Assembly: GCA_016788565.1 (NCBI GenBank)
Contig: JAEUSP010000073.1
Coordinates: forward strand, 1-64,000
From: Chlorobiota bacterium
GTDB taxonomy: Bacteria; Bacteroidota; Ignavibacteria; OLB7
Direction: 5' to 3'
Length of the DNA: 64,000 nt
The notes beneath the pieces were generated by a model. That model worked only from the letters and a program-made list of their open reading frames with translations, ran no database searches and was not told where the DNA came from. Shown here piece after piece: positions 2,912 through 62,730 of the stretch. Both the position numbers and the translations under genes were made by a program. Within the stretch, counting starts at the first letter, position 1. Every line of letters starts with the position of its first letter.

Positions 2912-2999
2912 CTGAGAAAATGACGGGTGTAGAATGGAAGAACAATTTCAGTTCTCACTTGCTTTCTATCACCCGGCATTTTTCATCATACATTTATGA

Positions 3000-3115
3000 T
3001 ATACTCGGATGAAATTGGTTTGCGAAACTCTACTCAGCTAGGTGTGGTATGGATTCCCGCTTTCGCGGGAATGACAACGACTAGATTTTTCGCAAACCAT
3101 TCTGTTTGGAGTATA
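3000..3115. repeat. 116-bp palindromic element, copy 1
   Basis: The element begins TATACTC and ends GAGTATA. Inside are a second arm pair (GGTTTGCGAAA against TTTCGCAAACC) and a central perfect hairpin (ATTCCCGCTTTCGCGGGAAT, about 3053-3072). The same element, with the same length of 116 bp, recurs at 21020-21135. It carries no reading frame and looks like a non-autonomous MITE- or REP-type element. Its right end touches the 3' end of haaO (stop codon at 3117-3119). Confidence 0.85.
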
Positions 3116-3116
3116 T

Positions 3117-3644
3117 TTATGCGGCCAGCACTGGCGGCTGCATTACTGTGCCGCATTGTTTGCAGGTGCGTAATTCTTCATTTGCCCAAAATGCTTCCAT
3201 CACTGGTTTTAATTGTGTGGTGATGTCGATTAATGGGAAAAATGCTTCGTGCAGTTTATTGCTGCAATGTTCGCAGTACCATTGCAATCCATCTTGCTCA
3301 CCTTCGCGACGGCGGCGTTCCACCACCAAACCAATGGTGTTTGCTTTGCGTTGTGGCGAGTGTGGAACCCGCGGAGGAAGCAAGAAAATATCCCCTTCTT
3401 TTATTTCGATGTCGCGAATTACTCCATCTTCCACAATGCGAACCACAATATCCCCCTCTAACTGGTAAAACAATTCTTCCCCATCCTCAACGTGGAAATC
3501 CTTGCGAGCGTTTGGGCCGCCAACCACCATCACCATGAACTCTGGATGAACTTCTTTCCAGATTTGCTCGTTGCCAACGGGTGGCTTCAGTTTGTGGCGG
3601 TTTTCGTCAATCCATTGCTTCAGATTGAATGCGGTAAGTGCCAT
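3117..3644 (-). CDS. haaO: 3-hydroxyanthranilate 3,4-dioxygenase
   Basis: 175 residues, matching the short bacterial type of this cupin dioxygenase. The iron ligands are visible as His51, Glu57 and His95, in the segments DFHVEDGEELFYQ and PPRVPHSPQ. A second, rubredoxin-like metal site at the C-terminus has CEHC (Cys124 and Cys127) and CKQC (Cys161 and Cys164), as in the characterised bacterial enzymes. It opens the ring of 3-hydroxyanthranilate to give the ACMSD substrate. It lies between kynU and ACMSD, and the gap to ACMSD holds a palindromic repeat, so co-transcription is likely but not proven. Confidence 0.96.
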   Translation of the reverse strand: MALTAFNLKQWIDENRHKLKPPVGNEQIWKEVHPEFMVMVVGGPNARKDFHVEDGEELFYQLEGDIVVRIVEDGVIRDIEIKEGDIFLLPPRVPHSPQRKANTIGLVVERRRREGEQDGLQWYCEHCSNKLHEAFFPLIDITTQLKPVMEAFWANEELRTCKQCGTVMQPPVLAA

Positions 3645-6287: not shown

Positions 6288-9200
6288 ATGGAATCCTACC
6301 GACTACTCTTTCCGACCCTCCTTCTGCTTGCCGCTTCCGCCACGCTCCACGCGCAAGAATCGCCGCTGTTTCGCTGGCTTCCGCCAACCCAAACCGGGGT
6401 GGATTTTGCCAACATGGTTGCCGAGGATGACACCTTCAACGTCACGCTCTTCATCTATGCCTACAACGGCGGCGGGGTGGCCGTGGGGGATGTGAACGGC
6501 GACGCGCTGCCGGACCTTTATTTCACCGGAACCCGCGCAAATTCGCCAAACCGCTTGTTCCTGAATCAAGGTGGGTTGCGTTTCCGTGAGGCTTCGCGCC
6601 AGGCTGGCGTGGATGACTCGGTTGGCGTTCGCTACGGCGTGACAATGGCCGATATTGATGCCGATGGTGATCTGGACATCTACGTTGCCAAACACGACGC
6701 GCCAAACACCCTGTTCATCAACAACGGCAACGGAACCTTCAGCGAGCAGGCGCACAAGTTTGGGTTGGATTTCTGCTGCACCAGCCAACAAGCCGCCTTC
6801 TTCGATTACGACCGCGACGGCGATCTTGATATCTACCTTGCCCGGAACGGCGATGCAAAAGGGGAAGCGTTCAAGCGCGACGGCAACCCCGACCGGTTGT
6901 TCCGCAACAACGGCAACGGCACGTTCAGCGATGTGAGCGACCAGGCCGGAATCAGCGATAAAGGTTACGCGCTTAGCGTGATGGTGGGGGATTACAACAA
7001 CGACGGCTGGGCCGACGTGTACGTTGCCAACGACTTCGAAGCTCCCGATTTGCTTTACATCAACAACCACGACGGGACCTTCACCAACCGCATGCGCCAA
7101 TGGATGAAGCACACCAGCATTTTTTCGATGGGTTCCGATGCTGCCGATTTTAACAACGACGGCAATCTTGACCTGTTCACCGTGGATATGATGCCGGAAG
7201 ACCACTGGCGGAAGATGTCGCACATGGGGCAAGGCTCAGTCTATGACCCAAAATTCGACTCGGCACAGTTGATGCGGAACATGCTGCAAGTGAATCGGGG
7301 AAACGGCACGTTTCTGGAAGTTGGCCAGCTTGCCGGAATTGCTGAAACCGATTGGAGTTGGGCACCCCTGTTTGCCGATTACGACAACGATGGCGATAAA
7401 GACCTGTTCATCAGCAACGGCTACAAGCGGGATGTGCAGAACCTTGATGTGATCCACAACCTTAACGGCCGCAGCTTCCAGCCGCTGAACGTCATCCGAA
7501 AAGTCCCCTCGGTGAAACTGCAGAACTACCTGTTCCGCAACGATGGCGGCATGGCGTTTACGAAGGTGAGCAACCAGTGGGGCGCAATTCAGATGGTGAA
7601 CACCAACGGCGCGGCCTTTGCCGATTTGGATCTTGACGGCGACCTTGATCTGGTGATGAACAACATTGATAGCGTTGCCTTCATCTACCAAAACCTTGCC
7701 GCCGACCAGCACCGCGGAAACTACCTGCACGTTGCTCTGCAAGGTTCCGACAACAACACCGCTGCTATTGGCTCGCGGGTGACAATCAACGCCGGGGGGC
7801 GCTCGCAGATGTTGGAGTGCACCCCCGTTCGCGGCTACATGTCCTCCCTCAACTGCCCGCTCCATTTTGGGTTGGGGGATGCGGCAACGGTGGATACCCT
7901 CACCGTCCGCTGGCCCAACGGAACGGTGCAGAGTGTGGCAAACGTGAAAGCAAACCAGGTGGTGACCATCAAGCAGGAAGCCTGGGCGAACGCTGTGCCG
8001 CCACCTCCAACTCCGGTTCCCGACACGTTGTTTGTTCAACTTGCTAACGGGCTTCAGTATCGCCACCGTGAGAACCGTTTTGATGATTTCCTGCGTGAGC
8101 GGTTGTTGCCCAACCGCCTTTCGCGCAGCGGGCCGGGGATTGCGGTGGGGGATGTTGATGGAAACGGCCTTGATGACGTTTGGATTGGCGGCGCGCGCGG
8201 CTACGCGGGGGCGTTGTTCTTGCAAAACCAATCCGGGCAGTTCAGCCGTTCGGAAGATAGCGCGGCGTTTGTTGCCGACTCCGCCAGCGAGGACACCGGC
8301 GCGCTGATGTTCGATGCCGATAACGATGGCGACCTTGACCTGTACGTGGCAAGCGGCGGCAACGATTTTGCTCCTTCGGAGTTCGCCTTTCTGCAGGATC
8401 GGCTTTACTTGAATGACGGCAAGGGGAAGTTCGCCAAAGCAAGCGACGGCCAGCTTCCCGCAATGCCAACCAGCACCAGCAGCGTGGTTGCTGCCGACTA
8501 CGATCACGACGGCGATCTTGATCTGTTCGTTGCTGGGCGATCCGTTCCCGGGAAATATCCAACCGCGCCACGCAGCTACCTTCTGCGGAACGACCGTGGC
8601 CGATTCAGCGATGCCACCGCAACCGTTGCGCCCCAGTTACTCCATCCCGGAATGGTGACCTCTGCGCTCTGGACAGATTTCGACAACGACACTTGGAGTG
8701 ATCTGATTCTGGTGGGTGAGTGGATGCCGGTGCGGTTTTTCCGCAATCAGCAAGGGAAGCTGCATGAAGTGACTTCTGCCGCCGGAGTGGATTCCAGCGA
8801 AGGGTGGTGGAACAGCATCAGCGGCGGTGACGTGGACAACGACGGCGATGTGGATTACGTTCTGGGAAATTGGGGGCTGAACGTTTATTCCCCGCTGCGC
8901 CCCAGCAACCAGTTCCCCCTGCAACTCTATGCCCGCGATTTTGACGGCAACGGCAGCAGCGATCTTGTGCTTTCCTACTTCTTCCGTGGGGCCGAGTATC
9001 CGGTGCGTGGCCGCGTGGAAACGGCAAGCCAGCTTCCGGCATACATCCGCCGAAAATATCCGACCTACACCGGCTACGCCAGCGCGACGCTGGATCAGAT
9101 GTACGGGCGGGCCAACCTTGATTCTGCCGAGCAATTCCGTGCGCGAACCTTTGCCAGCAGTGTTCTGGAAAATCTTGGCAACGGGCGGTTTCGGCTTCGC

Positions 9201-9725
9201 CCGCTCCCCCTTGTGGCCCAGGCCACGCCGATGTTCGGCTCGCTTCTGGAAGATTTTGACGGGGACGGAAATCTGGACCTGTTGTGCGTCGGCAATTTCG
9301 ACGGGGGCGACCCACTGGTGGTGCGCTACAACTCCGGCTACGGCCTGTATTTGAACGGCGATGGCAAAGGAAATTTTCTGCAGAAATCGGCAACCGGCGC
9401 GGGGTTCAACGTGCCGGGGGAAGGGCGCGGGCTTGCCTGCGTTGCGGGGAAGCAGAGGGTCACGATTGTTGCCGCCAATTGCAACGCCGCCGCAGCCAGC
9501 TTCCAGATACGCCAGCAACCGTTCCGCATTGGTCGCGCCAACAACTACACCCACAGCATCCTGCACCTGGGCGACGGGCGAACCCGCAGGCAGGAGTGCT
9601 ATTGGGGCGGCGGCTACCTTTCGCAAAGCTCCCAAATGCTGATGCTCCCATCGGCAACCGCCACGGCCGAACTGTACAACGGTGAGAAAAAAATGGGAGA
9701 GGTAAAAGCGAAGAGTGAAGAGTGA
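6288..9725 (+). CDS. Secreted FG-GAP/VCBS and UnbV (CRTAC1-like) protein
   Basis: 1145 residues. A signal peptide (MESYRLLFPTLLLLAASATL followed by HAQ) is followed by a long array of FG-GAP/VCBS-type repeats, each carrying an Asp-rich calcium loop such as DADGDLDIY, DYDRDGDLDIY and DFDGDGNLDLL. An ASPIC/UnbV domain sits near residues 480-560 (the GSRVTINAGG, RGYMSS and VDTLTVRWPNG segments), and a second set of repeats follows to the end. Such proteins form calcium-binding beta-propellers outside the cell and are common in Bacteroidota next to polymer-use genes. No T9SS domain is obvious at the C-terminus. It stands alone, and its partner or ligand is unknown. Confidence 0.9.
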   Translation: MESYRLLFPTLLLLAASATLHAQESPLFRWLPPTQTGVDFANMVAEDDTFNVTLFIYAYNGGGVAVGDVNGDALPDLYFTGTRANSPNRLFLNQGGLRFREASRQAGVDDSVGVRYGVTMADIDADGDLDIYVAKHDAPNTLFINNGNGTFSEQAHKFGLDFCCTSQQAAFFDYDRDGDLDIYLARNGDAKGEAFKRDGNPDRLFRNNGNGTFSDVSDQAGISDKGYALSVMVGDYNNDGWADVYVANDFEAPDLLYINNHDGTFTNRMRQWMKHTSIFSMGSDAADFNNDGNLDLFTVDMMPEDHWRKMSHMGQGSVYDPKFDSAQLMRNMLQVNRGNGTFLEVGQLAGIAETDWSWAPLFADYDNDGDKDLFISNGYKRDVQNLDVIHNLNGRSFQPLNVIRKVPSVKLQNYLFRNDGGMAFTKVSNQWGAIQMVNTNGAAFADLDLDGDLDLVMNNIDSVAFIYQNLAADQHRGNYLHVALQGSDNNTAAIGSRVTINAGGRSQMLECTPVRGYMSSLNCPLHFGLGDAATVDTLTVRWPNGTVQSVANVKANQVVTIKQEAWANAVPPPPTPVPDTLFVQLANGLQYRHRENRFDDFLRERLLPNRLSRSGPGIAVGDVDGNGLDDVWIGGARGYAGALFLQNQSGQFSRSEDSAAFVADSASEDTGALMFDADNDGDLDLYVASGGNDFAPSEFAFLQDRLYLNDGKGKFAKASDGQLPAMPTSTSSVVAADYDHDGDLDLFVAGRSVPGKYPTAPRSYLLRNDRGRFSDATATVAPQLLHPGMVTSALWTDFDNDTWSDLILVGEWMPVRFFRNQQGKLHEVTSAAGVDSSEGWWNSISGGDVDNDGDVDYVLGNWGLNVYSPLRPSNQFPLQLYARDFDGNGSSDLVLSYFFRGAEYPVRGRVETASQLPAYIRRKYPTYTGYASATLDQMYGRANLDSAEQFRARTFASSVLENLGNGRFRLRPLPLVAQATPMFGSLLEDFDGDGNLDLLCVGNFDGGDPLVVRYNSGYGLYLNGDGKGNFLQKSATGAGFNVPGEGRGLACVAGKQRVTIVAANCNAAAASFQIRQQPFRIGRANNYTHSILHLGDGRTRRQECYWGGGYLSQSSQMLMLPSATATAELYNGEKKMGEVKAKSEE

Positions 9726-9782
9726 AATGGGAAGAGTGAGATGGGAAGGATGCCAAGCCAAGCCCAGCACGAACGCCACCCT

Positions 9783-9828
9783 CCGCTCATGCTGAGCCCC
9801 GTCGAAGTATGAGCGTGAGCCGCCGGAC
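9783..9828 (+). repeat. Dispersed 45-bp palindrome, copy C
   Basis: This copy has the same orientation as copy A and ends GAGCCGCCGGAC instead of GAGCCACCGAAC. It lies between the UnbV gene and mobA. Confidence 0.88.
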
Positions 9829-9924
9829 TGCGCCGCTACTTGCCCTCACCCCCCCGCCCTCTCCCAAGCGGGTGAAAGTGCTGCTTGCCTCACATTTGTC
9901 AGATGGGCGAGGGAGCCAAAGTGA

Positions 9925-10008
9925 AGAGTGAGATGGGAAGAGCCAAAGCCGGAAACTCACTAATGACTAATGACCACGGACCAATGACTAATGACCACCA
10001 CACCGCGA
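9925..10008 (+). repeat. Composite repeat overlapping the mobA start
   Basis: This stretch has the order GAAGAGTGA, then CCAAAGCCGGAAACTCACTA, then repeated ATGACTAATGACCA, then CCACCACACCGC. The same order recurs at 56958-57060 upstream of an unrelated gene. Here the ATGACTAATGACCA units lie inside the mobA reading frame and provide its first codons. Confidence 0.85.
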
Positions 10009-10616
10009 AGCCCACCGTTGCAATCCTGGCTGGCGGCAAAAGTCGGCGAATGGGGCGCGACAAAGCCTCAATCCACGCTGGCCCAGATGCGGAGTCAGAT
10101 AGCGACTCAACTGGCCAACAAACATGGCTGGAAAAACTCTGCTGGCTGGCCGTGAGCTTGGGCGCAACCGTGGTTGTGGTGGGGCGCGAACGCCCGGATA
10201 GTTGGCGCATCCCGAACATCAGTTTCCTTCGGGATGACACCCCGCCAATCGGCCCGCTGGGTGGCTTGGCAACAGCACTGCGCCACGCCGATTCCCCGGT
10301 TGCCCTTGTCGGCTGCGACATGCCACGGCTAACCGAGCAAGCCTTCCGGTGGCTGCTGTCGCAGCGGGGAAGCCTGGCAAACGCCGATGGAGTTGTGGTG
10401 GTTGCTGGCGGGGAGGTTCAACCTCTTTTCTCCATCTACTCACCCTCACTTCTTCCAACAATTCAGCGGCAGATGGGGCATGGTGATTACTCACTTCGCG
10501 GGGTCATCGGCCAAGCCCGGTTCGCCATGCTTGACGCGCCTGATTGGCTGCTGCCCCAACTTGCCGGGGTGAACACACCGCAGGAACTGAAAGCCTGGCG
10601 CGCCGAGCAATCGTAA
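9984..10616 (+). CDS. mobA: Molybdenum cofactor guanylyltransferase
   Basis: 210 residues from this start. The nucleotide-binding signature LAGGKSRRMGRDK lies close to the N-terminus, followed by DDTPPIGPLGGLATAL and the metal-site segment LVGCDMPRL, as in MobA. The enzyme transfers GMP from GTP to molybdopterin. Two equivalent ATG codons, at 9963 and 9984, both arise from the repeat unit ATGACTAATGACCA, each reading Met-Thr-Asn-Asp-His. I chose the one nearer the conserved domain. A longer frame reaching back to 9885 only adds translated repeat. An internal acidic stretch (PDAESDSDS) is an unusual insertion after the signature loop. The gene converges with maf, 11 bp away. Confidence 0.9.
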   Translation: MTNDHHTAKPTVAILAGGKSRRMGRDKASIHAGPDAESDSDSTGQQTWLEKLCWLAVSLGATVVVVGRERPDSWRIPNISFLRDDTPPIGPLGGLATALRHADSPVALVGCDMPRLTEQAFRWLLSQRGSLANADGVVVVAGGEVQPLFSIYSPSLLPTIQRQMGHGDYSLRGVIGQARFAMLDAPDWLLPQLAGVNTPQELKAWRAEQS

Positions 10617-11445: not shown

Positions 11446-13782
11446 ATGGAACGCAAACTGACCTACGATCCGCTGATTGAACTGATGGCGTTTTACGATG
11501 GCCGCAAAGCCACGCGCGAAAAAGCTGACGCGGCCACGCTTCCGGTGGAGGAACGCCTGAAGCAACGCATCGTTGACGGCGACCAGCTTGGCATTGATGC
11601 CGATCTGGACGAAGCACTTCGCAGCCATGATCCCTTGTTCATTATCAACACCATCCTGTTAGATGGAATGAAAGTGGTGGGCGAGTTGTTCGGTTCCGGC
11701 CAGATGCAGCTTCCGTTTGTGCTGCAATCAGCCGAGACGATGAAGGCTGCCGTTGGCCACCTTGAGCCGTTCATGGAGCGCACCGAGCAAACCGCGCGCG
11801 GGATCATGGTGCTGGCGACGGTGAAAGGGGATGTTCACGACATCGGGAAAAATCTGGTGGATATCATCCTGACCAACAACGGCTACCGCGTCATCAATTT
11901 GGGGATAAAAGTTCCGGTGGAGGTTATGCTGGATGCGGTTCAGCAACACCAGGCCGATGCCATTGGGATGAGCGGACTTCTGGTGAAAAGCACGTTGGTG
12001 ATGAAAGAAAATCTGGAGCTGATGCATGGGCGCGGAATCCACGTTCCGGTGGTGCTTGGCGGCGCGGCATTAACCCGCCGGTATGTTGAGCACGACCTCC
12101 GCCAAATCTACGGCCCCAATGTTGCCTACGCCGAGGATGCCTTTGCTGGGCTTCACTACATGGAAGCAATCGCCGAGACGGGGATGTTGGTTCCAGAGTC
12201 GGCACAGGCGGAGGCAGCAACCGCCGCCGAATCCGCAACCGCAACGCAATCGCCCGACCCCGCCGAATCCGCACGCCGCCGCGCCACCGACGAACGTGGT
12301 GAGGTGAAATACCGCATTGCCATTGAAGAAGAAATCGAAGAGCTGGCAACGCTGATGCTGGCCGAGCCAGAAGAAGTGCAAGGATGGGGGTTGGAAAACA
12401 TCATTGTTGCCGAACTGCGCGACACGATTGTGGGATGCGGATTGATCGCCCCGCTCGGCGACTCCGCTGTTGAGCTGACCGAGATCACTGTGCTTCCGGA
12501 ACAATGGGCCGCTGGCGTGGGGATGGACCTTGTTCGGGTGATGCGGCGCACCGCACGCAGCGGCAAACCGGAAACCACGATCTACGTGGCCTGCAACCCA
12601 GACGATGCCGACCTTGCCCGATTCTACCGGACGCTTGGCTTCGACCAGATTAGCTTAGACGACCCACGCGCTGCGGCTGCCGAAGATAAAATTGCGTACT
12701 GCTTGGAACAGTACGGAGCCGCCCCCGCGCTGTTCATCAGCAAGCCGGCCAGCCAGATTAACGACCGCACCGTTGGCGCGTTGGACACCGCGCTTCACCT
12801 GATGCAGGAGCAATCGCGCGATGCCGATTTCCCGCTGAATGTGGAGCAGTACGAAGCGCAGAACAACGTCCGCAAACTTCGCGTCACCAGTGATACCGAC
12901 CGGACGATTCCGATTCCCGAAGCTCCATTTTGGGGATCGCGGGTGGTGGAAAATATCCACCTTGATAAGGTGTTCGAGTACATCAACGAGGTGGCCTTGA
13001 TCCGTGGCCAGTGGCAGGTGCGCAAGGGGAAACGCACCCCCGAAGAATACCGCCGCGAGCTTGATGAAGTGGTCTATCCAAAATTTGAGGAGATGAAGTT
13101 GCGCGCCAAGCGCCAGCGGCTGCTGGATCCAAAAGTGATTTACGGATTCTTCCCCTGCCGTGCCGAGTACAACTCACTGGTGGTCTATCGTCCGGCGGGG
13201 ATAAGCGACACCGAATTGATTGGTGAATGGAATGGAGCAACGCCGGCCAGCCAGTGGCTTCAGCAAACGGAGTTGCAGGAGTGGCTTCGGTTCGAGTTTC
13301 CCCGCCAGTCGCATGGCCGCCACCTGTGCATTTCCGACTTCTTCCGCCCTGTGGAATCGGGTGAGTACGACGTGCTGGGAGTCCAGATCGTCACCGTTGG
13401 TGGGAAGGCAACGGAGTACTCCAACGAACTGTTCCGGGCCAACAACTACAGCGACTACCTCTATTTCCACGGGTTGTCGGTGGAGAGTGCCGAGGCGTTG
13501 GCCGAGTACTGGCATCGTTCAATCCGGACCGAGCTTGGCATTGCCGGCGACGACGCAGCCGATATCCGCCGGCTTTTCTCGCAGGGCTATCGCGGCAGCC
13601 GGTACTCGTTCGGCTACCCCGCCTGTCCCGACCTTGAGCAGCAAACCAACATCTTCCAGCTTCTACGCCCCGAACGGATTGGGCTTGCGCTGAGCGAGGA
13701 GTTTATGCTGGAGCCGGAGCAATCCACCAGTGCGATTGTGGTGCACCATCCCGCCGCCAAGTATTTCAACGTGAGAGAGTGA
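11446..13782 (+). CDS. metH: MetH-like cobalamin + GNAT + AdoMet-activation fusion
   Basis: 778 residues corresponding to the C-terminal half of cobalamin-dependent methionine synthase. Residues 1-115 are the methionine synthase cap domain (PVEERLKQRIVDGD and LFGSGQMQLPFVLQSAE). Residues 118-270 are the B12 domain, with the DVHDIGKN motif placing the cobalt-ligand His at 131. Residues about 430-778 are the reactivation domain that binds AdoMet (GYPACPDLEQQ). The homocysteine and folate domains are absent and must be supplied by another gene if the enzyme is complete. An extra domain at about residues 285-425 resembles a GNAT acetyltransferase (ITVLPEQWAAGVGMDLV and FYRTLGFDQ) and sits exactly between the B12 and reactivation modules. 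The alanine/proline-rich linker before it suggests a true fusion, not a frameshift. Confidence 0.9.
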   Translation: MERKLTYDPLIELMAFYDGRKATREKADAATLPVEERLKQRIVDGDQLGIDADLDEALRSHDPLFIINTILLDGMKVVGELFGSGQMQLPFVLQSAETMKAAVGHLEPFMERTEQTARGIMVLATVKGDVHDIGKNLVDIILTNNGYRVINLGIKVPVEVMLDAVQQHQADAIGMSGLLVKSTLVMKENLELMHGRGIHVPVVLGGAALTRRYVEHDLRQIYGPNVAYAEDAFAGLHYMEAIAETGMLVPESAQAEAATAAESATATQSPDPAESARRRATDERGEVKYRIAIEEEIEELATLMLAEPEEVQGWGLENIIVAELRDTIVGCGLIAPLGDSAVELTEITVLPEQWAAGVGMDLVRVMRRTARSGKPETTIYVACNPDDADLARFYRTLGFDQISLDDPRAAAAEDKIAYCLEQYGAAPALFISKPASQINDRTVGALDTALHLMQEQSRDADFPLNVEQYEAQNNVRKLRVTSDTDRTIPIPEAPFWGSRVVENIHLDKVFEYINEVALIRGQWQVRKGKRTPEEYRRELDEVVYPKFEEMKLRAKRQRLLDPKVIYGFFPCRAEYNSLVVYRPAGISDTELIGEWNGATPASQWLQQTELQEWLRFEFPRQSHGRHLCISDFFRPVESGEYDVLGVQIVTVGGKATEYSNELFRANNYSDYLYFHGLSVESAEALAEYWHRSIRTELGIAGDDAADIRRLFSQGYRGSRYSFGYPACPDLEQQTNIFQLLRPERIGLALSEEFMLEPEQSTSAIVVHHPAAKYFNVRE

Positions 13783-56957: not shown

Positions 56958-57060
56958 TGAAGAGTGAAGAGTGAAGAGTGAAGAGTGAAATGGAGCCAAA
57001 GCCGGAAACTCACTAATGACTAATGATCAATGGCTAATGACCAATGACCACCACACCGCC
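56958..57060 (+). repeat. Composite repeat, second copy of the mobA-start repeat
   Basis: Same order of GAAGAGTGA units, GCCAAAGCCGGAAACTCACT, ATGACTAATGA-type units and CCACCACACCGCC as at 9925-10008. Here it lies upstream of TerC and carries no gene, showing that the mobA start lies inside a mobile or expanding repeat. Confidence 0.85.
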
Positions 57061-57072
57061 GAATCCCGCTCC

Positions 57073-57118
57073 CCGCTCATGCTGAGCCCCGTCGAAGTAT
57101 GAGCGGAGGCCACCGAAC
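57073..57118 (+). repeat. Dispersed 45-bp palindrome, copy F
   Basis: Same orientation as copies A, C and D, with a GG insertion near the right end (GAGGCCACCGAAC). It lies between TerC and the beta-helix gene. Confidence 0.88.
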
Positions 57119-60162: not shown

Positions 60163-60268
60163 CAGGGGGGAGTGATTTATAGGGCAGATGGATTTCGTGT
60201 TAGGATTACTGGGTATAGTGTGCTATCATTGCTATCACTTTTTCCCAGCGAACCAATATCACGACGGC

Positions 60269-61477
60269 ATGAAGGAAAACCTGTTGATTCGGAATGTCCC
60301 CCCTGCAATACGCTCTTGGCTTGAACAGGAACGTCATCAGCAGCAGATGACGCAGAATGAGTTTCTACTGAAAGTTCTTGAACGAGCCAGCTCGTACTCC
60401 GCACAACCCTCTCTATTTGATGAGGTTGAGCATCCCCCACGTGCAGCAAATACAGAATCGGCGTTACCCTTTACGTTCATTGATCTGTTTGCAGGAATTG
60501 GTGGGCTGCGTATCGGCTTAGAGCGTGCTGGTGGACACTGCCTGTTTTCTTGTGAATGGGATAAATACTCACAGAAAACATATAAGGCTTGGTTCGGCGA
60601 GCTACCGCACGGGGATATACGCGCAATTGCCCCTGAGACTATTCCCGATCACGATTTATTAGCCGCAGGTTTCCCATGCCAACCATTCTCAATAGCTGGA
60701 GTATCGAAGAAAAATAGCCTTGGCCGTGCTCATGGTTTTCAGGATGCTGCACAAGGAACTCTATTCTATAATGTGGCCACAATTGCTGCAATAAAGCGTC
60801 CACCTGTTCTGCTTCTTGAGAACGTTAAAAATCTAATGTCGCATGATGGCGGAAGAACCTACAAGGTGATATCAGCGACGTTGAAGGATTTAGACTACGC
60901 AGTTTTTAATAAAGTTATTGATGCGGCAGACTACGTACCACAACATCGAGAGCGTATTTTTATTGTTTGCTTTGATAAACATGTTTTCGGCAGTAGCCCG
61001 GAATTTAAGTTTCCAAAAGCGCCCGAATCAAAACCAAAATTCAAAGAAATTTTAGAATCAGAGCCAGATAGCAGGTACACGCTAAGCGACCATTTGTGGA
61101 AATACTTGCAGGATTATGCACAACGCCACCGAGAAAAAGGAAATGGATTTGGCTTCGGGCTTGCGGATTTAGATGGCGTATCACGCACGTTGAGCGCAAG
61201 GTATTATAAAGACGGGTCTGAAATTTTGATCCCTCAAGGAAAGCACAAGAATCCACGCAGATTAACACCCAGAGAAGCTGCGCGTGTTATGGGTTTTGAA
61301 GATAGCCGTGAAATTGTGGTATCGGACACACAGGCATATAAGCAATTCGGGAATGCAGTGGTTCCACCTGTTGCTGAGGCTATAGCTAAAGAGATCGTTA
61401 AAACGCTACGGTGGCATCTTACAAGTTGCGGATCACGCTGCCTTGTCAAGGGGCGTAATTTGTCATCCCATAAATAA
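60269..61477 (+). CDS. DNA (cytosine-5) methyltransferase with N-terminal ribbon-helix-helix-like region
   Basis: 402 residues. Cytosine-5 methyltransferase motifs appear in order: DLFAGIGGLRIGLERAGG (AdoMet site), the catalytic Cys137 in AGFPCQPFSIAG, LLENVKNL, QHRERIFIVCF, and the C-terminal YKQFGNAVVPPV. The first 45 residues (ENLLIRNVPPAIRSWLEQE) look like a ribbon-helix-helix DNA-binding element, as seen in some C5 methyltransferases that autoregulate. With the EcoRII-like gene 80 bp after it, it should modify CCWGG-type sites, though specificity is inferred. AT-richer than its neighbours. Confidence 0.93.
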   Translation: MKENLLIRNVPPAIRSWLEQERHQQQMTQNEFLLKVLERASSYSAQPSLFDEVEHPPRAANTESALPFTFIDLFAGIGGLRIGLERAGGHCLFSCEWDKYSQKTYKAWFGELPHGDIRAIAPETIPDHDLLAAGFPCQPFSIAGVSKKNSLGRAHGFQDAAQGTLFYNVATIAAIKRPPVLLLENVKNLMSHDGGRTYKVISATLKDLDYAVFNKVIDAADYVPQHRERIFIVCFDKHVFGSSPEFKFPKAPESKPKFKEILESEPDSRYTLSDHLWKYLQDYAQRHREKGNGFGFGLADLDGVSRTLSARYYKDGSEILIPQGKHKNPRRLTPREAARVMGFEDSREIVVSDTQAYKQFGNAVVPPVAEAIAKEIVKTLRWHLTSCGSRCLVKGRNLSSHK

Positions 61478-61557
61478 GAAAACGACAGATGGATTCCACT
61501 TGGAGACTGATGACATTGCTGATGAAGTAGCCTCTAAATACCAAACACGCATACCGT

Positions 61558-62730
61558 ATGGCCTCAGCTATAGGCGAAAAAGCTATTGAAGCTGCTTTAA
61601 GCACTGGTAAAGCAATTCTGAAGTTTGTTTCACGTAACGACGTTGGCTTAACTGGCGGGCATCAATCCGGTTTCTTTCTCCCTAAGTCAGGATGGCATAT
61701 CTATTCACCGTATCCGCCCACAAAAGGAGAAAATAAAAAGAGTTGGCCTAGGGTAGTTTGGCAAGATGGAAGAATAACTGAGTCATGCGTGACTTGGTAT
61801 GGAACCGGTACACGCAGTGAATACCGATTAACGAAATTTGGGAAAGGCTTCCCATTCCTGACGGCTGATATTGTGGGTGATCTTCTGGTGTTGATACCAA
61901 TAAACCATCAGGAATTTCGCGCATATATTTTGGATATTGATGAAGATATAGAAGAGATTCAGGTTGCGTTAAGCGTGGAGATAACGGAGACGTACGCTAT
62001 CTATGATCGTGGTCAAGTTGCTATCCCTGAGAGTGAGGATGAGTGCATTGCCCGCAATTTTAGAAAGTTCGTTGAGTTGTTATCAGATTATCCAAGCACT
62101 CAAGAGTTTGCCGATGCTACTCGTAAGACTCTTGAAGGATGCATTAAAAGTTTTGAGAAACTCACTGCTGATGAAAGGTTGCGCTGTCTTGTAGATGAAG
62201 AATACACACTGTTCCGCATGGCCGAGCGGAAGATTACTCAACCTGAGGTAACTCGTCTATTCAAGGATGTGGATGATTTTCTTGCAACGGCTTCCACAAT
62301 TATGAATCGTCGGAAAAGCAGAGCAGGCAAATCGCTTGAACGGCATGTTGAAAATTTATTTTCTTCAGCAGGTATCCCATTTGATGCACAGCCCAAAATT
62401 GATGGCAATGTGCAGCCAGATATTCTAATACCGAGTAGAATCGCCTACGTTGATGACTCATATCCCGCAGATAAACTCTTTGTGGTTGGTGTGAAACGAA
62501 CATGCAAGGATCGTTGGAGGCAGGTTTTGAATGAGGCCAAAAGAATACCCCACAAGCATATACTCACACTGCAACCGGGTATCTCTGCAAGCCAGCTTTA
62601 TGAAATGAAAAATTCAAACATATCATTGATTGTTCCGAAGTACCTCCATAAACAGTATCCGCGTGGAACAGGCATTTCAATTCTGACAGTTGAGGATTTT
62701 ATTGCACACATACAGGCTGTACATTCATAG
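61558..62730 (+). CDS. EcoRII-like type IIE restriction endonuclease
   Basis: 390 residues, close to the 404 of EcoRII. Along the sequence it follows EcoRII: RNDVGLTGGHQSGFFLPK near the N-terminus, RRKSRAGKSLERHVENLF and VGVKRTCKDRWRQVLNEAKR in the catalytic C-terminal domain (with PD and K of the nuclease core in PDILIPS and GVKRT), and ISLIVPKYLHKQYP near the end. EcoRII cleaves before CCWGG after binding a second site via its N-terminal domain, which is also present here. The specificity is predicted from similarity only. It is 80 bp downstream of the methyltransferase, on the same strand. Confidence 0.9.
   Translation: MASAIGEKAIEAALSTGKAILKFVSRNDVGLTGGHQSGFFLPKSGWHIYSPYPPTKGENKKSWPRVVWQDGRITESCVTWYGTGTRSEYRLTKFGKGFPFLTADIVGDLLVLIPINHQEFRAYILDIDEDIEEIQVALSVEITETYAIYDRGQVAIPESEDECIARNFRKFVELLSDYPSTQEFADATRKTLEGCIKSFEKLTADERLRCLVDEEYTLFRMAERKITQPEVTRLFKDVDDFLATASTIMNRRKSRAGKSLERHVENLFSSAGIPFDAQPKIDGNVQPDILIPSRIAYVDDSYPADKLFVVGVKRTCKDRWRQVLNEAKRIPHKHILTLQPGISASQLYEMKNSNISLIVPKYLHKQYPRGTGISILTVEDFIAHIQAVHS

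Follow-up and report, generated by a model that had tools for sequence, protein, structure and literature searches.

A mosaic heptamer repeat probably replaced the start of mobA and the stop of its upstream neighbour in a Chlorobiota bacterium

Introduction

In a Chlorobiota bacterium, the junction between a gene with FG-GAP repeats and mobA is made up wholly of repeat, up to the conserved coding sequence on either side. We consider it probable that the block in front of mobA is a copy of a mosaic intergenic repeat, whose insertion or expansion at this junction replaced the native start of mobA together with the native stop codon of the gene upstream. The window referred to below is the whole stretch of 64,000 nucleotides that was analysed; its genome (G000) is compared with that of a congener (G001, contig JADZEY010000120.1).

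Anatomy of the mobA junction

Bases that match at least three other, dispersed places in the sampled genome define a repeat territory of about 9683–10016. Within it fall the final 12 codons of the upstream gene with their stop, and roughly the first ten codons of mobA. The original prediction had set the extent of the repeat at 9925–10008; the repeat is real, but these coordinates are too narrow, and the same repeat that holds the start candidates of mobA also provides the stop codon of its neighbour. The upstream gene (6288–9725, plus strand) was recognized in a domain search by its FG-GAP repeats and an ASPIC/UnbV domain, and its 3' end appears repeat-rewritten on comparison with the congener. 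mobA (9984–10616, plus strand) encodes a MobA-like molybdenum cofactor guanylyltransferase with conserved coding from about 10017. Its product matches the Pfam family of MobA-like NTP_transf_3 domains (PF12804, 3.9e-25). Its exact name is provisional, because the NCBIfam MobA models score below their equivalog cut-offs (at best 78.7 bits, where 164 is required).

Several modules make up the territory. On the plus strand, a (GAAGAGT)-type heptamer array at 9706–9748 (TRF arrays 9710–9748) encodes the C-terminal residues KAKSEE of the upstream gene product and carries that gene's TGA stop (9723–9725). A dispersed inverted-repeat module, CGCTCATGCTGAGCCCCGTCGAAGTATGAGCG, lies at 9784–9815; it has 7-bp arms, CGCTCAT/ATGAGCG, and occurs in many copies in both genomes. 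A second, degenerate (GAAGAGT)-type module (9921–9940) is joined by the bridge AGCCAAAGCCGGAAACTCACTAATGA (9941–9966; found 14 times in the 708 kb sampled when 4 mismatches are allowed) to an (ACTAATG/ACCAATG) heptamer array detected by TRF at 9959–9995, all three on the plus strand. This last array is the source of the ATG codons at 9963 and 9984. A hairpin repeat, CCGCTCATGCTGAGCCCCGTCGAAGTATGAGCGG, is likewise dispersed and abundant in both genomes, being found at 9784–9815, 57072–57106 and many other places.

Elsewhere in the window, 11446–13782 encodes a MetH-like protein that lacks the N-terminal catalytic domains and retains the B12-binding and activation domains; a GNAT acetyltransferase domain (residues 310–400) lies between the cobalamin and activation domains, and the protein is 90% identical in the congener. 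A DNA cytosine methyltransferase gene and then an unassigned 390-aa gene, possibly its restriction partner, occupy 60188–62730. The window also encodes a T9SS sorting domain, which fits a Bacteroidota-type lineage.

The start codon of mobA

A frame scan shows the mobA frame to be open back to 9876, with six in-frame start candidates on the plus strand between 9885 and 9986, all of them in repeat: TTG 9885, ATG 9903, GTG 9921, ATG 9933, ATG 9963 and ATG 9984. The heptamer units had been proposed to give two alternative starts; ATG 9963 and ATG 9984 are in frame as described, but the candidates number six, not two. A GTG or TTG start nearer to the motif LAGGKSRRMG had been named as evidence that would speak against a start from the repeat, and the scan found no ATG, GTG or TTG in the mobA frame between 9984 and 10050. 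The ATG at 10050 itself sits within the nucleotide-binding loop LAGGKSRRMG, and starting there loses LAGGKSRR. Translation of MobA would, on this evidence, start inside the repeat.

There is a modest chance that the start lies elsewhere, either at an upstream in-frame codon, such as GTG 9921, which follows GAGGGAG, so that MobA would have a longer N-terminus encoded by repeat, or further downstream at a non-standard codon. The open frame with its four codons from 9885 to 9933 favours an upstream start; these options are equally in repeat, however, which leaves the main point unaffected, and the downstream side is empty of the usual start codons before 10050. Far less probable is a phase-variation switch, in which gain or loss of 7-bp units would shift the frame of the start ATG and toggle mobA. 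A period of 7 is no multiple of 3, and changes in unit number are presumably usual for such arrays. Against it, ATG 9984 adjoins the gene end, so that upstream unit changes keep its frame; several more in-frame starts exist; mobA is no surface gene; and phase variation was judged unlikely for heptamers by Rehm et al. (PMC4692102).

The idea that mobA is a special case is not supported. Roughly 4–5% of stops and 3–4% of sampled starts lie inside repeat, the stop counts being firm and the start counts approximate with our home-made gene caller. Two of the block's three reading frames are open with an ATG and the third has a stop, so that an in-frame start from the block is expected. By dN/dS against the congener, 0.24 for mobA and 0.15 for the upstream gene (median of 128 pairs, 0.14), both genes evidently remain under purifying constraint.

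The same junction in a congener

Gene order around mobA is the same in the congener, where a short, repeat-free gap of 40 bp separates the called gene ends. The upstream gene ends there in QVGEVGK and TAG, versus KAKSEE and TGA in G000. The start of mobA in the congener is most plausibly a TTG behind GGGGAGGA, eight bases after GGGGAGG, from which LLNTTSIVAIL would be read; the two N-termini thus compare as LLNTTS-IVAIL and, in G000, MTNDHHTAKP-TVAIL. DNA identity between the genomes stops at 9678 in the upstream gene and restarts at 10017 in mobA. This interruption and the differing ends in the congener together indicate that the repeat replaced terminal codons of both genes. An orthologue with the same N-terminus and no repeat had been named as a counterexample to look for, and the congener's N-terminus differs. 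With no downstream start before 10050 either, the proposal that the repeat rewrote the 5' end of mobA is supported.

In the congener the repeat is located instead downstream of mobA, where the convergent maf gene takes its end from it. That the other genomes sampled from the family lack the block favours its gain within this genus. With a single congener, gain in G000 and loss in G001 are not separable, and gain in the G000 lineage is what we infer. That the junction is an assembly artefact, a repeat-induced misjoin in a draft metagenome genome, is scarcely credible: the draft comprises 137 contigs and short repeats are the usual site of misjoins and collapsed units, but the congener, which was assembled independently, has the two flanking genes side by side in the same order, and the mobA frame stays open and under constraint as far as the repeat.

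A family of dispersed heptamer mosaics

Two blocks with a common internal order had been described, at 9925–10008 and 56958–57060, and both exist. The order is (GAAGAGT)-type heptamers, the bridge, (ACTAATG/ACCAATG)-type heptamers and then ACCACCACACCGC; the bridge is identical at 9941 and 56994, and 9920–10006 is 87% identical to 56977–57059 (BLAST). The second copy, on the plus strand, lies between the divergent genes terC (start 56879, minus strand) and a beta-helix gene (57233, plus strand). It is upstream of terC as described, by about 80 bp, but the terC start does not come from it.

Rather than a pair at mobA and terC, the block belongs to a family of dozens. A 101-bp block gave 56 matches in its own genome, 40 in the congener (mostly short and mainly to the ACTAATG half) and none in three further genomes of the family, from two genera. 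With up to 2 mismatches, ATGACTAATGACCA occurs 10 times in the window versus 0.32 expected, and exact copies number 46 in the genome versus 0 for the reversed control; the repetition is far beyond chance.

The samples in which tandem arrays were compared amount to 708 kb for G000 and 1.09 Mb for G001. Twenty G000 stretches were picked for carrying ATGACTAATGACCA, which biases copy densities upward and affects comparisons of period and polarity less. Period 7 is essentially the sole short tandem period, with 72 arrays in G000 versus 0–2 for periods 4–6 and 8–11, and 95 in G001 versus 0–8; in three further genomes of the family, sampled on a small scale, period-7 arrays numbered 0–1. The arrays are dispersed and non-coding, only 206 of their 10095 bases in G000 (a total that includes a few N runs) falling within called genes. 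Their unit sequences are diverse, and the most frequent, ACTAATG, GAAGAGT and ACCACTG, have no GGG run.

A MITE-looking repeat of about 125 bp with imperfect inverted ends (TATACTC...TTGGTTTGCGAA) was also observed at 2994–3118 and in stretch L025 at about 9100–9240; it is present in G000 and absent at the same junctions of G001.

Polarity of the arrays

The G-rich strand runs outward from the gene in 169 of 207 arrays (77:18 in G000, 92:20 in G001). For arrays centred less than 30 bp from a gene end the bias reaches 59:4; beyond 150 bp there is none. By unit type, (T/C)GA(C/T) units point in the gene's direction ahead of starts (49:3) and in the opposite direction past stops (39:9), and GAAGAGT-like units after stops run with the gene (19:1). 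Repeat-free gene ends, taken as a control, lack this skew after stops and have it in weaker form before starts. On two Nostoc plasmid stretches the arrays divided 6:3, too few to tell.

Since units without G-runs obey the polarity, it does not require quadruplexes, and because most units lack such runs, quadruplex formation is unlikely to be its general cause. A translation filter was also considered and rejected as the sole cause: arrays after stops such as (TCAGTGG) hold no stop codons. Since such arrays are open reading frames, neutral insertion followed by a simple stop/start filter fails to account for the outward polarity, which counts against the preferred reading set out below. It is conceivable, if improbable, that a single DNA process not yet described lays heptamers of unrelated sequence in the outward direction from gene ends and would have rewritten coding ends in this genus repeatedly; as an example, outward-pointing 3' ends at intergenic breaks might be extended with G-rich seven-base units.

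Turnover at conserved junctions

Of 75 conserved gene junctions in the sampled DNA of the two species, 43 are free of repeat in both, 13 carry it in both, 14 in G000 alone and 5 in G001 alone; at 19 of the 32 repeat-bearing junctions it is therefore found in one species only. The junctions with repeat only in G000 have a median gap of 256 bp there versus 90 bp. Another stop is a clear case of replacement, from CAGGTGGAGTAG in G001 to CAGGTGGTCATTAGTCATTAG in G000 (stretches L037 versus L069). As far as sequence comparison can tell, heptamer repeats appear and vanish between genes, at times overwriting gene ends.

The gene argH adds a caution. It keeps the N-terminus MTNSQP-WGG in both species despite different arrays, (CGACATT) versus (CTGACCA), that reach the same conserved ATG; a repeat adjoining a start is thus not in itself evidence of capture. 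Capture is proposed at mobA because, unlike in argH, the native start is missing there. In the congener, heptamer arrays abut the start codons of argH (L102:11129) and argF (L102:8128) exactly; in G000, argF has no heptamer array immediately upstream, and argH has a different array with the same boundary.

These data also bear on the idea that the arrays are functional cis-elements, for instance sites of a translational or mRNA-stability regulator, with the mobA block as a retained regulatory leader. Their strong polarity and closeness to gene ends, fading with distance, would suit such a role, as would the similar placement relative to starts in Maribeggiatoa (PMC4679880). The fast turnover at conserved junctions argues against it, as do orthologues such as argH with different heptamers in the two species, and the leader at 9925–10040 is no better structured than shuffled sequences (z = +1.07). 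We regard a regulatory role as unlikely.

How the gene ends may have been rewritten

The preferred reading is insertion or expansion of a mosaic repeat, mainly of tandem heptamers, that would multiply and turn over between genes in this genus. At least one such event may have taken up the whole of the short space that separated the FG-GAP gene from mobA, as far as conserved coding on both sides, so that the native upstream stop would have given way to a TGA from the (GAAGAGT) array and the native mobA start to an ATG from the (ACTAATG) array. The gain was most likely passive, through slippage, recombination or some form of copying, and selection would remove only gene-breaking versions. Rewritten ends could be tolerated because heptamers hold a stop and/or an ATG once per 7 nt and, 7 not being a multiple of 3, serve all three frames in this way. 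Weak use of Shine-Dalgarno sequences would further ease the replacement of a start; such motifs precede 17% of starts versus 9% in the control.

A search for the Y1 transposase family PF01797 gave one match in G000 and none in G001. The mosaic has a palindromic module, but with a single such transposase in G000 and none in the equally repeat-rich congener, REP/RAYT is unlikely as a general mobilizer. Constant ends of the MITE kind were not seen at the junctions read by eye.

Comparison with known repeat systems

Intergenic heptamers that form quadruplexes, GGGAATC and GGGGA(C/T)T, were described in Xanthomonas and Nostoc by Rehm et al. (2015, PMC4692102), their G-rich strand being the non-coding one ahead of starts and the coding one past stops. 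Like the arrays studied here, they are tandem 7-nt repeats, dispersed, mostly intergenic, near gene ends, polar and overlapping stop codons. They differ in having one G-quadruplex unit per species, whereas many heptamers, most without G-runs, share one polarity here and are joined in mosaics with bridge and palindromic modules.

The TAACTGA direct repeats of marine Beggiatoaceae, Cyanobacteria and some Bacteroidetes (MacGregor 2015, PMC4679880) have been proposed, in Beggiatoaceae, as binding sites of a translational or mRNA-stability regulator. They too lie just upstream of starts, in some cases over upstream stop codons, and are missing at the same junction in relatives. The unit is a different one, its rotation AACTGAT heading no array in the sampled DNA, and related heptamers are rare there but diverse here. 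The STRR heptanucleotide repeats of heterocystous cyanobacteria are also dispersed intergenic heptamers, a comparison made here by type of repeat; their hosts are cyanobacteria, which this bacterium is not. The ACTAATG/ACCAATG part matches arrays on plasmids of Nostoc, Fischerella and Halotia, and a Nostoc plasmid array of the same heptamers (TTAGTCATTGGTCA, L180:23873-23969) spans the stop codon of an ABC transporter permease. Protein-coding MITE-like elements, namely RPE of Rickettsia, YPAL/RU-2 of Yersinia and the enterobacterial RU-3 (PMC2229807), offer another parallel, a mobile repeat that joins the reading frame of a conserved gene. Those elements are defined, mostly have inverted termini and are inserted in or fused to frames; here, variable arrays would replace terminal codons along with the start or stop.

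Intergenic heptamer arrays, their polarity, their overlap with stop codons and their closeness to starts are therefore already known from Xanthomonas, Nostoc and Beggiatoaceae. The present case adds an unrelated genus in which many different heptamers form a mosaic and follow a single polarity rule. It also adds a pair of species that appears to document how, at one junction, a stop as well as a start was replaced. For annotation, starts and terminal residues beside such repeats should not be trusted on homology alone. Since the polarity reported earlier for quadruplex-forming units also holds for units without G-runs, the quadruplex explanation is weakened and the origin of the polarity becomes testable.
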